Positions 48,022 through 52,633 of a stretch of DNA of 64,000 bases are shown here, piece by piece. The stretch is from the NCBI RefSeq assembly GCF_021088345.1, contig NZ_CP088156.1, positions 5,022,001 through 5,086,000 of the forward strand, written 5' to 3'. Position 1 is the first letter of the stretch; each line of letters begins with the position of its first letter. A program made the position numbers and the translations under genes. This DNA is from Bradyrhizobium ontarionense (lineage in GTDB: Bacteria > Pseudomonadota > Alphaproteobacteria > Rhizobiales > Xanthobacteraceae). The notes below the pieces were generated by a model that was given only the letters and a program-made list of their open reading frames with translations, did no database searches and had not been told where the DNA came from.

Positions 48022-48762
48022 TCAGGACTCGGAAGCGGTTTCATCGGCGCGCCGACGGGGCCGGGCCGTGCCCAGCACGATGGCCCCGACCGTGCTGGCC
48101 AGAAGTCCCGCAAGGAAGGGCGGAGACAGTACATCGTTGAACCAGACGATCCGGCTCAGCCCATAGAGAACGACGTAGGTGCCGGGAATGAGCAGCATCA
48201 GCCCGGCCATAACCGTCAGGCCGACAATGCCAGGGAGCCGCCGACGCAGCCGCAACCTCGCGCCAATTCCGGCCGCGCCGAGCAGGAAGCCTGCGATCAC
48301 CACGCCCTGGTCGTCGATGTCGTTGTAGGTCGCCAGGGCAATGCAGCCGAGCACCAGCGACCAGAGGCCCGGCAGCAGCAGCGCGACTGCCGCGACCGAC
48401 GTGACGGTTGTCGGCCAGCCGTTCGCCGGCGAAACCGTCGCGGTGGGCGGTCCCCCGCCGTTGCGCCGCCCACGCCGGATCAGGACGGCGCCCGCGGTCG
48501 CGGCGGACAGGCCTGCGAGGAAGAAGCCCAGATAGCCTCCCATCGTCCATCCGTCGGCAATGGCGGCCTGGACGGTCGCGTAAAGGCCCCAGCAGATCAT
48601 CGCAAGGCCGGCGAGCTGGATGATGGACATCAGACAACCGCCGCCACCCGACGCCGCTGCGACCGGATCCGGCGCGCCCCCGGGCGGCCCTTTCCAGCGC
48701 TCCCGTGGCAGCGGCGGGCGCGCGCGTTCAGCGTCATTCTGGCCTGACTCATTCGGCGACAT
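48022..48762 (-). CDS. Membrane protein made of three fused two-helix LLLPG-type units
   Basis: 246 residues. After a ~35-residue disordered start come six helices in three diverged units. Unit 1: LAGLAMICWGLYATVQAA..FFLAGLSAATAGAVLIRRGRR. Unit 2: VALLLPGLWSLVLGCIALA..VVIAGFLLGAAGIGARLRLRRR. Unit 3: GLMLLIPGTYVVLYGLSRI..FLAGLLASTVGAIVLGTARPRRR. Each unit has a LLxPG-type first helix, an AGL/AGF second helix and a basic end, like the single-unit proteins encoded just upstream (49187-49680). Last gene of the minus-strand lipid-type operon. The ATG at 48762 has GAGG upstream. No known family recognised. Confidence 0.75.
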   Translation of the reverse strand: MSPNESGQNDAERARPPLPRERWKGPPGGAPDPVAAASGGGGCLMSIIQLAGLAMICWGLYATVQAAIADGWTMGGYLGFFLAGLSAATAGAVLIRRGRRNGGGPPTATVSPANGWPTTVTSVAAVALLLPGLWSLVLGCIALATYNDIDDQGVVIAGFLLGAAGIGARLRLRRRLPGIVGLTVMAGLMLLIPGTYVVLYGLSRIVWFNDVLSPPFLAGLLASTVGAIVLGTARPRRRADETASES

Positions 48763-49039
48763 CGCGATGCCTCGGCTCAGCGCCACCGGCGGTAGAGCGC
48801 CAACGCGATCTGCATGAGGCCGGGAATGGCAAACCGACCAGAATCAATCCCGGGCCCGACAGGCCGCCGGCGACGATGTCGGAGCGGAACATAGCGAATA
48901 CGCAGCCGACGGGAAACAGCAGGGCGAGACCGCCAAGCACCGCCAGAACGGTCGCCAGCAGGCTGACCGGCTGCCGAACCCGGGGCAGCTCCTGCAGGAA
49001 GGGCGACAGGATCGGACGACGATCGTCTGGATCATTCAT
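48749..49039 (-). CDS. Small membrane protein of the LLLPG family with an apparent frameshift near its end
   Basis: As it stands, 96 residues: two helices (VSLLATVLAVLGGLALLFPVGCVFAMF; GGLSGPGLILVG) then an unnatural tail PFPASCRSRWRST. In the next frame the sequence continues FAIPGLMQIALALYRRWR and stops at 48777, a normal helix plus basic end with strong GC3. One base seems lost in the run at 48831-48833 (GGTTT on the coding strand). The repaired gene would end 14 bases before the next start instead of overlapping it. Start MNDPDDRRPILSPF at 49039. Confidence 0.7.
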   Translation of the reverse strand: MNDPDDRRPILSPFLQELPRVRQPVSLLATVLAVLGGLALLFPVGCVFAMFRSDIVAGGLSGPGLILVGLPFPASCRSRWRSTAGGAEPRHRDVAE

Positions 49040-49045
49040 GATCGT

Positions 49046-49186
49046 TCATGGCCGCGTTGGACCCATGCGATGGATGGCGAACAACATCACGACAAGGCCG
49101 GCCGCCGCCAGTCCCAATCCGGGCCCGTCAACGGATCGAAGAGCGGTTGGGACGAAGCCGCGAGGGTCACCGTCATGCAGCGTCCG
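49046..49186 (-). pseudogene. Start-less relic of an LLLPG-family small membrane protein
   Basis: Directly after the TGA of the upstream gene, and in the same frame, the minus strand reads GDPRGFVPTALRSVDGPGLGLAAAGLVVMLFAIHRMGPTRP and stops at 49046. This matches the second half of the protein at 49423-49680 (ADPRGALPLTGLAFVIAGGGLLMIIAAVGRM). No start codon or first helix is present, so it is the 3' half of a lost copy, probably after deletion in a tandem array. Confidence 0.55.
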
Positions 49187-49426
49187 TCAACGACGCCACG
49201 CTGTCATGATCAGCCAGATCCCGCCGGCGCCGATCGCCAGGCCGGCGACGACCCACGCCGTCAACGCGTCCGGCCAGCTTTTCTCCTGCAACCCGAGATA
49301 GCCGAAGACCACGGCGCAGGCGCCGGGCAGCAGCAGGATCACGCCGGCCACGAACAGAAACGCCGCCAGGCAGCCACTGCGCTGCTCCGGGGGTGTCGCG
49401 GGAGGGGGCGCGTCGGGTGTCGTCAT
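49187..49426 (-). CDS. Small two-helix membrane protein of the LLLPG family
   Basis: 79 residues: a Pro-rich start MTTPDAPPPATPPEQRSGC, helix 1 AAFLFVAGVILLLPGACAVVFGYLG, a short loop with EKSWPDAL, helix 2 WVVAGLAIGAGGIWLIMTAW, ending RR. The ATG overlaps the upstream stop by four bases (ATGA at 49423-49426), so translation is coupled. Clearly paralogous to the upstream 85-residue protein (shared P-P/E start, GC(L)(T/A)AFL, LLLPG). No known family recognised. Confidence 0.75.
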   Translation of the reverse strand: MTTPDAPPPATPPEQRSGCLAAFLFVAGVILLLPGACAVVFGYLGLQEKSWPDALTAWVVAGLAIGAGGIWLIMTAWRR

Positions 49427-49680
49427 TGCGGTGGCTTCCGGCGTTTCATCCTGCCGACGGCGGCAATGATCATCAGGAGGCCGCCGCCTGCGATAACGAA
49501 GGCCAGTCCGGTCAACGGCAGCGCGCCGCGCGGATCGGCGATGACGCACAGCACGCCGGGGAGCAGCAGGATGATGCCGAAGACGATCAGAAAGGCAGTG
49601 AGGCAGCCATTGCCGGCCTCCGGCGAGCCTGGACCGCGAGCCGGCGGCCAGACCGGCAATTTCTGCTCCGGCTCGCTCAT
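49423..49680 (-). CDS. Small two-helix membrane protein of the LLLPG family, first in the array
   Basis: 85 residues: MSEPEQKLPVWPPARGPGSPEAGNG start, helix 1 CLTAFLIVFGIILLLPGVLCVIA, DPRGALPL loop, helix 2 GLAFVIAGGGLLMIIAAVG, basic end RMKRRKPPQ. Its ATG overlaps the stop of the radical SAM gene by four bases (49677-49680), which ties it functionally to that enzyme. Possible partner or lipid-handling subunit. No family recognised. Confidence 0.77.
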   Translation of the reverse strand: MSEPEQKLPVWPPARGPGSPEAGNGCLTAFLIVFGIILLLPGVLCVIADPRGALPLTGLAFVIAGGGLLMIIAAVGRMKRRKPPQ

Positions 49681-51092
49681 GATCGGCCGCCTTTCGCCAG
49701 TCGCGCCCTGATGCCGTCGATGGCGCCGTTGCGGTAGAACAGGTTGTAGGTGTCGAACGGGATGATCTCGCCGCGCTCGGTGACGAAATGGATGCAGGAA
49801 CGCTTGACGTTGCCGATGCAGAAATTGAAGCGGTCGAGAAACTGCACGATGGTGACGCGGAAGACGTGCTCATAGCCGAGATCGTCGGGCACCTCGACGG
49901 TCGGCAGGCAGCACAGGAATTCGGCAACGCGCTGGCCGGTGTTGAGCGCGCCGGACGACAGCGAGAACAGCTCGACGAATTTTTCGCGCAGCACCGGATA
50001 TTTTTCCGGGCTGATCGTGTTCGGCATCACCGACAAGAGCTCTTCCTGCGGCACCATCGAGGTCAGCGGCAGCACCGTGGTGCCGTTGCGCAGGCCATAG
50101 CCGATCGAGATGCTTTCGGGATTGCAGGGCAGCGGGATCATGTCGGTGTCGCCGAACACGCCGGTCTCGACGACGCGGCGGCGGATCTCCGACAGCATGA
50201 TGCGGTCGGTGTCCTTGTTGAAATCCGCGTTGCGGCCGGCGTCCTGCACCGGCTGCAGCGTCACCCCGCGGACGCATTTCCATTCGAGCGCGTGGCGGAC
50301 GATGTCGCCGATCTCGTCGTCATTGACGCCGCGCTTGATGGTCGCGACCAGCGTCGTCGAGATGCCCTCGCGCTCCAGATTCTCCAGCGCCTGCTGGCGG
50401 ATGCGGCGCAGGTCAGCGCCGCGCAGATTGGTGAGCCCGGCGCGCGACAATGAATCGAACTGCAGGTAAACCTCGAGGCCACGCTTGTTTTCGGCCAGCC
50501 TTGCCACGAAGTCCGGCTCGCGGGCGATGCGCAGGCCGTTGGTGTTGATCATGACATGGCGGATCGGACGCGCCCGCACCGCGGCGAGGATGTCGAAGAA
50601 GTCAGGATGCAGCGTCGGCTCGCCGCCGGAGATCTGCACCAGGTCCGGCTCGCCCTCGCTTCTCACCAGCGCGTCCAGCATCCGCTCGACGGTGGCGAGC
50701 GGGGTGAAATGCGCCCGCTGCGGCGAGGACTCCGCGAAGCACACCGGGCAGGTCAGGTTGCAGTGATCGGTGATCTCGATCAGCGCCAGGCAGGAATGCT
50801 GCTCGTGGTCGGGGCACAGGCCGCAATCATAGGGGCAGCCATACTCGGTGCGGCGCTGGAAGCTGAGCGGCGTGTCGCCGGGCTTGATGAAGTCCTTGCA
50901 GCGACGCCAATAGGCGGCATCGTCGGAGACCAGCGTCGACTGCACGCCGTGATCCGGGCAGCGCTTCTCGTACCAGACCTCGTTGTCGAGGATCTGGATC
51001 TTGGTCGGCACCAGCGCGAGGCAGGTCTCGCAGAGCGATTGGGTCTGCCCCCAGAACACGTAGGGACGTGACTTACGCAGCGGCGCGTTCAT
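49677..51092 (-). CDS. Radical SAM protein of the tetraether lipid synthase (Tes)/COG1964 type
   Basis: 471 residues. The radical SAM cluster motif is C111-x3-C115-x2-C118 (ITDHCNLTCPVCFAES). In front lies C86-x3-C90-x2-C93...C101 (YGCPYDCGLCPDHEQHSC), and at the start a rubredoxin-like C21-x2-C24...C45PDH. This order is that of archaeal Tes, which joins lipid tails by C-C bonds. Further marks are QISGGEPTLHPDFFDIL and the C-terminal FNFCIGNVKRSCIHFV with more cysteines. Overlaps the Lgt-like gene by 20 bases and the small membrane gene by four. Substrate is inferred to be a membrane lipid; other COG1964 roles are possible. Confidence 0.85.
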   Translation of the reverse strand: MNAPLRKSRPYVFWGQTQSLCETCLALVPTKIQILDNEVWYEKRCPDHGVQSTLVSDDAAYWRRCKDFIKPGDTPLSFQRRTEYGCPYDCGLCPDHEQHSCLALIEITDHCNLTCPVCFAESSPQRAHFTPLATVERMLDALVRSEGEPDLVQISGGEPTLHPDFFDILAAVRARPIRHVMINTNGLRIAREPDFVARLAENKRGLEVYLQFDSLSRAGLTNLRGADLRRIRQQALENLEREGISTTLVATIKRGVNDDEIGDIVRHALEWKCVRGVTLQPVQDAGRNADFNKDTDRIMLSEIRRRVVETGVFGDTDMIPLPCNPESISIGYGLRNGTTVLPLTSMVPQEELLSVMPNTISPEKYPVLREKFVELFSLSSGALNTGQRVAEFLCCLPTVEVPDDLGYEHVFRVTIVQFLDRFNFCIGNVKRSCIHFVTERGEIIPFDTYNLFYRNGAIDGIRARLAKGGRS

Positions 51093-51801
51093 GCAGAACC
51101 TTTGCTCGTGGCGCCGTCGCCAGCATGGCCATGGCGTAAGCCGCGATGGCGAGCGACAGCAGATGAAACAGCGTGAACGGGCCGATCACCGGCCCATAGG
51201 GCTTGAGGAATTCCCAGGCGAAGCGCTGCAGCCCATAGACGAGCAGTGCGAGATAGAAGCCATTGGCGATCACGGTCGCGTTCCGGCGCAGCACGGCGGC
51301 GACATAGAAGGCTGCGAATATCGCCATCGCGAGGCTCTCATAGAGCTGCACCGGATGGCGCAGGATGCGGTCGCCGAAATCATGGCCCCAGGGCAACGCC
51401 GTCGGCGTGCCATAGGTGAAGTCGTCGAGCCCCGCGGCATAGCAGCCGATGCGGCCAACGGCGATGCCGACCGCCATCGGCAGCGCAAAGCGCGCGCCGG
51501 TGCGCACCGCAATGCCGTGACGCCATTTGTACAGCTCGACCGCGATGATGCCGCCCGCTAGCGCGCCTTCGACCGAGCGGGCCACGCCAGCCAGGCCGGA
51601 GAACCACAGGTTCAGGCTACCGAACAGGTACGCGCCGATCCCGGCGCCGAATACCAGCGCCGCGACATACGGCCATTCGGTCGCCTGTCCGGGAAAGCGC
51701 AGCCCCTGGAGACGCGACAGCCACCAGCCGGCAGCGCCGGCGGTGAGCCACGCGGCAACATCGAAGATTGCGTGAAGCGCAGCCCCGCCCATGAACCCCA
51801 T
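51073..51801 (-). CDS. Divergent prolipoprotein diacylglyceryl transferase (Lgt)-like membrane protein
   Basis: 242 residues, about seven helices. Lgt marks kept: GRIGCYAAGLDDFTYG (Lgt GRxGNF-type, with N replaced by C), HPVQLYES, and RFAWEFLKPYGP near the end. The HGG motif that holds the essential histidine of true Lgt is not seen; the matching place reads SVEGALAGGIIAVE. It is therefore probably not the housekeeping lipoprotein enzyme but a relative acting on phosphatidylglycerol or another lipid. First gene of the operon, 70 bases after the Crp/Fnr gene, overlapping the radical SAM gene. Confidence 0.8.
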   Translation of the reverse strand: MGFMGGAALHAIFDVAAWLTAGAAGWWLSRLQGLRFPGQATEWPYVAALVFGAGIGAYLFGSLNLWFSGLAGVARSVEGALAGGIIAVELYKWRHGIAVRTGARFALPMAVGIAVGRIGCYAAGLDDFTYGTPTALPWGHDFGDRILRHPVQLYESLAMAIFAAFYVAAVLRRNATVIANGFYLALLVYGLQRFAWEFLKPYGPVIGPFTLFHLLSLAIAAYAMAMLATAPRAKVLHERAAA

Positions 51802-51871: not shown

Positions 51872-52633
51872 TCAGCCGGTCGCGGCCTCGTCGGCCGGAT
51901 AGACACCGCGCAGGACTTCCTCGAAATGAGTCTTCACCGCCTCGTTGCACAGACATGACCGGCGCTTGAGCGCGTCGAAGTCTCGCACCACGAAGGCGCC
52001 GCGCCGGGTCTCGAGGATGCCGTCCGCCCGGAAGCTCTGGATCACGCGGCTGACGTAGCTGCGGCCGACACCGAGCAGCGTCGCGAGTTGCTCATGGGTG
52101 AGCGGCACGACGTCGTCCCCATCGGTGCGCTCCATCGCCGCGACGATCCATTTCGCCGTGCGCTGGTCGATCGAGTGGATGGCATTGCAGGCCGTGGACT
52201 GGAACATCTGCGCCAGCATGCAATCGGCATAGCGCGCGAACACGTTGCGCAACGTCTTCGATTGCAGCTTGGCGGCTGCCAGACGGGACAACGGCAGCCT
52301 TGCAAACGGGCCGCCGAACTTGACCACGATCCGGGTATAGGCCGGCAGAAAGCCTTCGCTGACGATGCCGCCGACCGCGCCCTCGCGGCCGACCAGGATG
52401 GTCTCGACGTCGCGGCCGTCCTCATTGGGAACGAGATAGGACGCGAGCGCCGGCCCGCAGGGAAAATGTACGATCTGCACGTCATCTCCCGGACTGTAGA
52501 TCAGATCGTTCGGCGCCGCCTCGTCCGCGGACAGATATGGGGCGATCAGCGCGTAGTCGGCCGGGCTCAGCCGCCGCAACAGGTTGTTGTAGGGCCGCTC
52601 CCGGGCGAGCGTCGTGACACCTTGGCTCAGCAT
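51872..52633 (-). CDS. Crp/Fnr family transcription regulator
   Basis: 253 residues. N-terminal cyclic-nucleotide-binding-like domain (LIYSPGDDVQIVHFPCGPALASYLV; ETILVGREGAVGGIVSEG) and C-terminal winged helix (LTHEQLATLLGVGRSYVSRVIQSFRADGILETRRG). The cluster cysteines of Fnr are absent, and the cAMP-pocket RxxS pattern is not evident. Related proteins in Bradyrhizobium are numerous and respond to varied signals. It lies 70 bases upstream of the Lgt-like gene on the same strand and could control or be part of that operon. Confidence 0.92.
   Translation of the reverse strand: MLSQGVTTLARERPYNNLLRRLSPADYALIAPYLSADEAAPNDLIYSPGDDVQIVHFPCGPALASYLVPNEDGRDVETILVGREGAVGGIVSEGFLPAYTRIVVKFGGPFARLPLSRLAAAKLQSKTLRNVFARYADCMLAQMFQSTACNAIHSIDQRTAKWIVAAMERTDGDDVVPLTHEQLATLLGVGRSYVSRVIQSFRADGILETRRGAFVVRDFDALKRRSCLCNEAVKTHFEEVLRGVYPADEAATG

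Follow-up and report, generated by a model that had tools for sequence, protein, structure and literature searches.

A conserved pair of Lgt-like and Tes-related genes accompanied by small cysteine-bearing membrane proteins in Bradyrhizobium and other bacteria

The closest described counterparts of the gene set reported here are the pathway of the prolipoprotein diacylglyceryl transferase Lgt and the lipid-coupling enzyme Tes, or GDGT-MAS (MJ0619), with its bacterial homologues. The gene set lies at positions 48022 to 51801 of a 64,000-nucleotide stretch of Bradyrhizobium ontarionense contig NZ_CP088156.1 (positions 5,022,001 to 5,086,000; this whole stretch is called the window) and encodes an Lgt-like membrane protein, a Tes-related radical S-adenosylmethionine (SAM) enzyme and small membrane proteins with a hallmark cysteine. 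GDGT-MAS is described as having a lipid tunnel and as making carbon-carbon bonds via a sulfur-carbon intermediate (PMC9433317). For bacteria, Zeng et al. report 456 Tes homologues, with Proteobacteria among them, and suggest the synthesis of branched glycerol dialkyl glycerol tetraethers (PMC8941075); the function of these relatives in bacteria has also been called unconfirmed (PMC11868695). In the excerpts searched, Tes is treated alone, without an Lgt-like partner or cysteine proteins. In Pseudarthrobacter, one of four single-cell genomes lacks a stretch of about 3.5 kb that contains a radical SAM gene and a prolipoprotein diacylglyceryl transferase gene (PMC12010503). Within the excerpts of open-licence PubMed Central full text, with subscription papers and preprints outside the search, the three-gene set is undescribed and the pair has only one incidental mention.

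The main result of our analysis is that the Lgt-like gene, the radical SAM gene and the small-protein genes form a set that is conserved beyond the local cluster, with a linkage that extends across phyla. In the window all of these genes are on the minus strand. The Lgt-like gene (51073..51801; 242 amino acids, seven long predicted helices) and the radical SAM gene (49677..51092; 471 amino acids, with PF23545 and PF04055) overlap by 20 bases (51073-51092). Two 4-base ATGA overlaps follow, one at 49677-49680 between the radical SAM gene and small two-helix protein 1 (49423..49680, hallmark cysteine within LLPGVLC), the other at 49423-49426 between this gene and small two-helix protein 2 (49187..49426, hallmark cysteine within LLPGAC). 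An earlier note, made from the letters of this DNA, had claimed these genes, their common strand, the overlaps and a Tes-like cysteine layout, and all of them were found in the sequence.

A scan of public genome contigs, which is not a census, gave at least 80 loci. The Lgt-like gene is upstream of the radical SAM gene on the same strand in 78 of the 80 loci among the matches listed, and the contigs of the remaining two (L066 and L098) start 23 and 106 bases ahead of the match to the radical SAM protein. The two genes overlap in most loci and are separated by more than 400 bases in four (L078, L079, L085 and L093). In L079 (5786-6226) and L085 (7901-8455) the intervening 0.43 kb or so is filled by similar multi-helix open reading frames (ORFs) with the motifs NRADFWCR and SRADFWCR. 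Most of the loci belong to Bradyrhizobium, followed by Rhodoplanes and other Rhizobiales, Rhodospirillales and Reyranella, and further ones are found in Sphingomonadales, Caulobacterales, Rhodobacterales and one Lysobacterales metagenome-assembled genome. Among evenly drawn genomes the radical SAM gene is uncommon, with 4 of 385 genomes of the window's class (E <= 1e-60), 12 of 398 genomes phylum-wide (E <= 1e-40) and 9 of 274 genomes of another class. It stands beside the Lgt-like gene in all 12 cases of the phylum sample and in 7 of the 9 cases of the other class. Within the genus sample it is found in 11 of 24 relatives. The genome collections partly overlap (L127 and L095 are apparently one contig), so not every locus in these counts is independent. 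At E <= 1e-40 the radical SAM protein has matches in nine plasmid records; five were opened, and in three of them, from Persicobacter (Bacteroidota), Nonomuraea and Mycobacterium avium, the Lgt-like gene adjoins the radical SAM gene. The linkage on which the earlier note built its proposal is thus conserved well beyond Rhizobiales, in other proteobacterial classes and, on plasmids, in Bacteroidota and Actinomycetota, and its recurrence, like that of the small proteins described below, is more than chance.

The sequences of the two enzymes also vary in parallel: their pairwise distances correlate with r 0.80 across 34 chosen loci, compared with a maximum of 0.32 in 500 shuffles. The branches of our radical SAM tree are very long, and we used it solely for the clustering of pair-bearing rows; these do cluster, with 2 changes against a shuffled mean of 4.8 and 0 of 500 shuffles as low. 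The mixing of classes in this tree suggests horizontal transfer. When the other neighbours of 46 loci were clustered, none recurred as regularly as the pair, and the real families that came next were found in at most 13 loci and at scattered positions.

The small membrane proteins are the third part of the set. We looked for ORFs of 55-130 amino acids with exactly two hydrophobic segments, starting at most 1.6 kb downstream on the same strand and regardless of cysteine content. In the 94 loci considered (L059 is excluded because a contig end cuts its radical SAM gene), 79 such ORFs are present in 52 loci, and the two-helix search returned none on the opposite strand. A cysteine is found in the first helix of 78 of the 79, versus 4 of the 16 ORFs of this kind that lie beyond 3 kb. 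A profile, which was built from the same neighbourhoods and whose loci are therefore not independent of these ORFs, detects 149 units in 89 of the 94 loci, with 1 to 6 per locus. The hallmark cysteine is present in 146 of the 149 units, and a glycine two residues ahead of it (G-x-C) in 116 of 138 distinct units. Four of the five loci missed by the profile have a protein with a transmembrane cysteine beside the pair: in L093 such a small protein sits between the two enzyme genes, in L141 and L142 there are membrane proteins of other shape that end in FGGC, FSGC or FGSC, and in L143 a hairpin is encoded directly upstream. The fifth, L146, has no small protein and no Lgt-like gene either. Among 41 Bradyrhizobium relatives, the 12 genomes with the pair all match the profile at the same locus (E <= 9.6e-10), and the 29 without the pair give only three weak matches (E 0.0026-0.0057). 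These observations support the membership of the small proteins in the system. Searches for close homologues had made them appear specific to Bradyrhizobium, which the search by shape and position overturned. None of 26 aligned members is known to match a Pfam or NCBIfam family above its cut-off; the matches are weak ones, for example to Phage_holin_3_6 in 5 of the 26 (best E 8.6e-5).

The distribution of charged residues predicts a hairpin with both ends inside, since the mean number of lysines and arginines over 77 sequences is 1.4 before helix 1, 0.69 in the loop and 3.3 after helix 2. The cysteine follows the last lysine or arginine at a median distance of 21 residues (interquartile range 20-21, 126 units) and would therefore lie near the outer face. 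The predicted geometry is that of a lipobox that stays uncleaved. Proteins of other shapes carry the same element: seven stretches from L141, L142, L148, L151 and L152, chosen by eye beside the pair, have a cysteine 16-21 residues past a lysine or arginine, at the end of the last helix and before a short outside tail. In the actinobacterial ones the motif is AG[IY]CTG[LI]NP. A small site that is common to differing proteins fits the target of a modifying enzyme. Beside the Lgt-like genes of L125 (4835-5653) and L145 (3789-4484), from another class, we also observed lipobox-like cysteine proteins (GGTGC and GSLGC), which are possible further acceptors.

This site bears on the role of the small proteins, which the earlier note regarded as subunits or lipid chaperones. 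Such a role would suit a system in which both enzymes make a modified free lipid, a chain-coupled or otherwise altered phospholipid, and the small proteins assist as subunits or lipid-handling partners without being substrates. The Tes fold of the radical SAM enzyme, the retention of counterparts of the phosphatidylglycerol-contacting arginines in the Lgt-like protein and the linkage of the small proteins to the pair are all consistent with a free lipid product, and membrane-spanning lipids have been proposed as the product of bacterial Tes relatives (PMC8941075). However, a free lipid does not account for the conservation of the cysteine (146 of 149 units), which far exceeds that of every other position, nor for the fact that the proteins of other shape have just the helix-cysteine element in common. 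A thiol acceptor is moreover what the Lgt fold normally serves. We consider a free lipid product unlikely, if a serious alternative. Subunits or chaperones are accordingly not the most likely role, since the near-invariant lipobox-like cysteine fits substrates better, and because the same kind of cysteine is found in the other-shaped membrane proteins beside the pair, our best reading is that the small proteins are substrates. Attachment of lipids to a protein is an alternative that the earlier note already offered, and its interpretation overall is partly supported.

The Lgt-like protein passes the Pfam LGT model (PF01790; E 4.6e-17, 62.6 bits against a cut-off of 24.9) and remains below the NCBIfam Lgt equivalogs (39.8 bits or less, cut-off 334). 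Its Lgt fold is putative. Like Lgt, the window protein retains counterparts of the Escherichia coli Lgt residues R143, G154, Y235, R239 and E243. The first four of these have counterparts in all rows covering each position (92 or 93 rows). The acceptor-like cysteine, at an outer helix end with a positive N-terminal flank, is a further likeness to the Lgt pathway. Unlike in that pathway, H103 and N146 are replaced, in the window by E78 and C120; the cysteine site is mostly no lipobox and its helix belongs to a hairpin; the putative dedicated acceptors are encoded beside the enzyme, together with a radical SAM partner; and the host carries a separate canonical lgt elsewhere. The protein therefore shows some but not all of the tested features of a canonical Lgt. 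A Foldseek search with its model gave no significant match, and a search of its gene against a phage collection gave no match. The second Lgt homologue of mycobacteria, MSMEG_5408, has the N146C replacement too and is presumed to have low Lgt activity (PMC13251419); comparably, a mycobacterial plasmid carries an N146C Lgt-like gene adjoining a Tes-like radical SAM gene. Relatives of the Nonomuraea Lgt-like protein are found in Nonomuraea, Nocardia, Microbispora, Mycolicibacterium, Mycobacterium and others (best 120 of 1992 matches, without gene context).

The radical SAM protein exceeds the cut-offs of PF04055 and PF23545. Its best NCBIfam model is TrsS (NF045646) with 303.5 bits, followed by Tes with 262.5, and because these scores are under the cut-offs of 490 and 450 it is in neither family as curated. 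It thus has no firm place in any group whose known substrate is not a lipid, which leaves the lipid-related proposal of the earlier note standing. The cysteines C21/C24/C45, C86/C90/C93/C101 and C111/C115/C118 named there are confirmed, and H48 can be added. Like Tes/GDGT-MAS and its bacterial homologues, the protein has a rubredoxin-like motif CX2CX20CX2H (C21, C24, C45, H48), an N-terminal cluster of three cysteines and a histidine (C86, C90, C93, H96) and the radical SAM motif CX3CX2C (C111, C115, C118), all of them invariant in 35 rows; two actinobacterial relatives are without the N-terminal cluster cysteines. Our alignments A2 and A3 comprise 35 and 32 rows, the window included, out of the 80 loci. 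Three further cysteines, C323, C394 and C433, do not vary in A2 or in a set of six rows including Actinomycetota, and may hold a C-terminal cluster, residues 394-400 being modelled at low confidence. The overall fold is also shared, as the structure model (pLDDT 79.9) matches GDGT-MAS/Tes in Foldseek with E 4.4e-36, a TM-score of 0.81 by query length and a root-mean-square deviation of 5.2, and the next protein follows at E 6.6e-10. The Tes-type assignment of the earlier note therefore holds at the level of the fold. Unlike in Tes/GDGT-MAS, the counterparts of Met439 and Tyr459 are lost and the score is under the NCBIfam Tes cut-off, and the protein does not show all the tested features of a canonical Tes.

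An arrangement of tandem small proteins beside a radical SAM enzyme is reminiscent of precursor arrays. With 1 to 6 units per locus, and weaker structural matches of the enzyme to peptide maturases such as SuiB and SkfB, the radical SAM enzyme might modify the small protein directly in the manner of a peptide maturase, for example by a thioether at the cysteine, with the Lgt-like protein as a membrane partner. In that case, however, the cysteine would be on the other side of the membrane from a cytoplasmic enzyme, the radical SAM protein matches GDGT-MAS along its length, and the Lgt-fold partner is left unexplained. We regard direct modification by the radical SAM enzyme as improbable. Two further ideas about this enzyme were rejected. 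One relative has two in-frame TGA codons, as a selenoprotein might, but both are only at its end. The PADLOC model pVip (viperin) matches the radical SAM protein with partial coverage (E 4.1e-12 and 2.8e-11), and small protein 2 has a single weak PADLOC match (E 0.0085); the antiphage reading was set aside because the full-length match of the radical SAM protein is GDGT-MAS.

Distant relatives of the enzyme are found in other surroundings. L147 (5634-9689), from another proteobacterial class, has two tandem Tes-like radical SAM genes amid genes that by eye resemble short-chain dehydrogenase/reductase (SDR) genes, without an Lgt-like gene, and is perhaps a different pathway. In the plasmids of Mycolicibacterium vanbaalenii and Halorarius a methyltransferase gene comes after the radical SAM relative (L149:4998-7366 and L150:5004-7167), again without an Lgt-like partner. 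In L146 (5018-7386) the gene after the radical SAM relative encodes a protein whose start resembles an ordinary lipobox (LSAC).

The explanation that we favour is that the small proteins are modified with lipid at their cysteine and that the chains of this lipid are altered by the radical SAM enzyme; we would give it somewhat less than an even chance. The system would be a dedicated one, consisting of a membrane enzyme of the "Cys for Asn146" Lgt type, a Tes-related radical SAM enzyme and at least one small cysteine-bearing membrane protein. In the order of steps that we suggest, the radical SAM enzyme would abstract a hydrogen from a phospholipid acyl chain inside a hydrophobic tunnel, and a new bond would form at that chain, coupling it to sulfur or to a second chain. 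The diacylglyceryl part, probably from phosphatidylglycerol, would then be transferred by the Lgt-like enzyme onto the G-x-C thiol close to the outer side of the membrane. The helix before the cysteine would stay uncleaved, so that the protein remains a lipid-bearing hairpin, and its role may be a local stiffening or tethering of the membrane.

Several observations weigh against this explanation. Two residues that are essential in E. coli Lgt are missing: among 92 rows, the H103 position holds no histidine (E 45, A 17, V 17, L 11, I 2) and the N146 position is cysteine in all 92. It is reported that H103 is not universal in true Lgts, and that N146C Lgts are already known, at least one of them partly functional (PMC13251419). 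Only 32 of the 138 distinct units fit a canonical lipobox pattern, and LspA cleavage is therefore not expected for most units. In the radical SAM protein, V416 and F436 stand in place of Met439 and Tyr459 of GDGT-MAS, which are conserved in archaeal homologues and can each be replaced with activity kept (PMC9433317). Distant radical SAM relatives occur near SDR or methyltransferase genes in L147, L149 and L150, and L146 has the radical SAM gene without the Lgt-like gene. In the window itself, a protein of three hairpin-like units (48022..48762, minus strand) lacks the cysteine in two of them, units 2 and 3, whose hallmark position is occupied by W or Y. Finally, it is unexplained how a cytoplasmic radical SAM enzyme and an outward-facing Lgt-like site would share one lipid.

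The three-unit protein is part of what the earlier note called an array of tiny membrane proteins. Two intact two-helix genes of this array stand, and the rest is made up of this protein, a probable remnant and an out-of-frame copy. The probable remnant of a further small-protein copy (49052..49186, minus strand) is an open stretch without a start that weakly matches the second helix only. In the small two-helix copy with the motif FPVGC (48749..49039, minus strand) the second helix is in another frame, through damage or a sequence error, and full-length relatives are present in L023 and L024 (Bradyrhizobium sp. BTAi1). The remnant and the out-of-frame copy suggest that copies are both gained and lost in this array.

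A Crp-like regulator is encoded upstream of the Lgt-like gene on the same strand (51872..52633, minus strand), with a homologue upstream in most Bradyrhizobium loci, and is outside the conserved core. Its adjoining position in Bradyrhizobium would suit a system that senses or repairs oxidised membrane lipids, in which the cysteine would take part in redox or metal chemistry or link oligomers by disulfides, and a single cysteine could indeed pair between subunits. Against this, the small proteins, glycine aside, have no second conserved ligand, and the position of the cysteine matches an acylation site. We regard a redox or metal role as very improbable.

In its full extent, the lipid modification of the small proteins would be new: membrane hairpins with a lipid on a transmembrane G-x-C thiol, whose chains are joined or sulfur-linked by a Tes-type enzyme into tetraether-like, possibly membrane-spanning anchors, and which have spread horizontally in Pseudomonadota, Bacteroidota and Actinomycetota. 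We consider this full picture doubtful, and rather unlikely in all its parts. If it is true, orphan bacterial Tes relatives and the Lgt paralogues with cysteine for Asn146 would obtain a partner set and a role that can be tested, the simple prediction being that proteins of about 80 residues carry a lipid on a single cysteine. It would also point to a class of membrane proteins that are lipidated at a dedicated site other than the classical lipobox.

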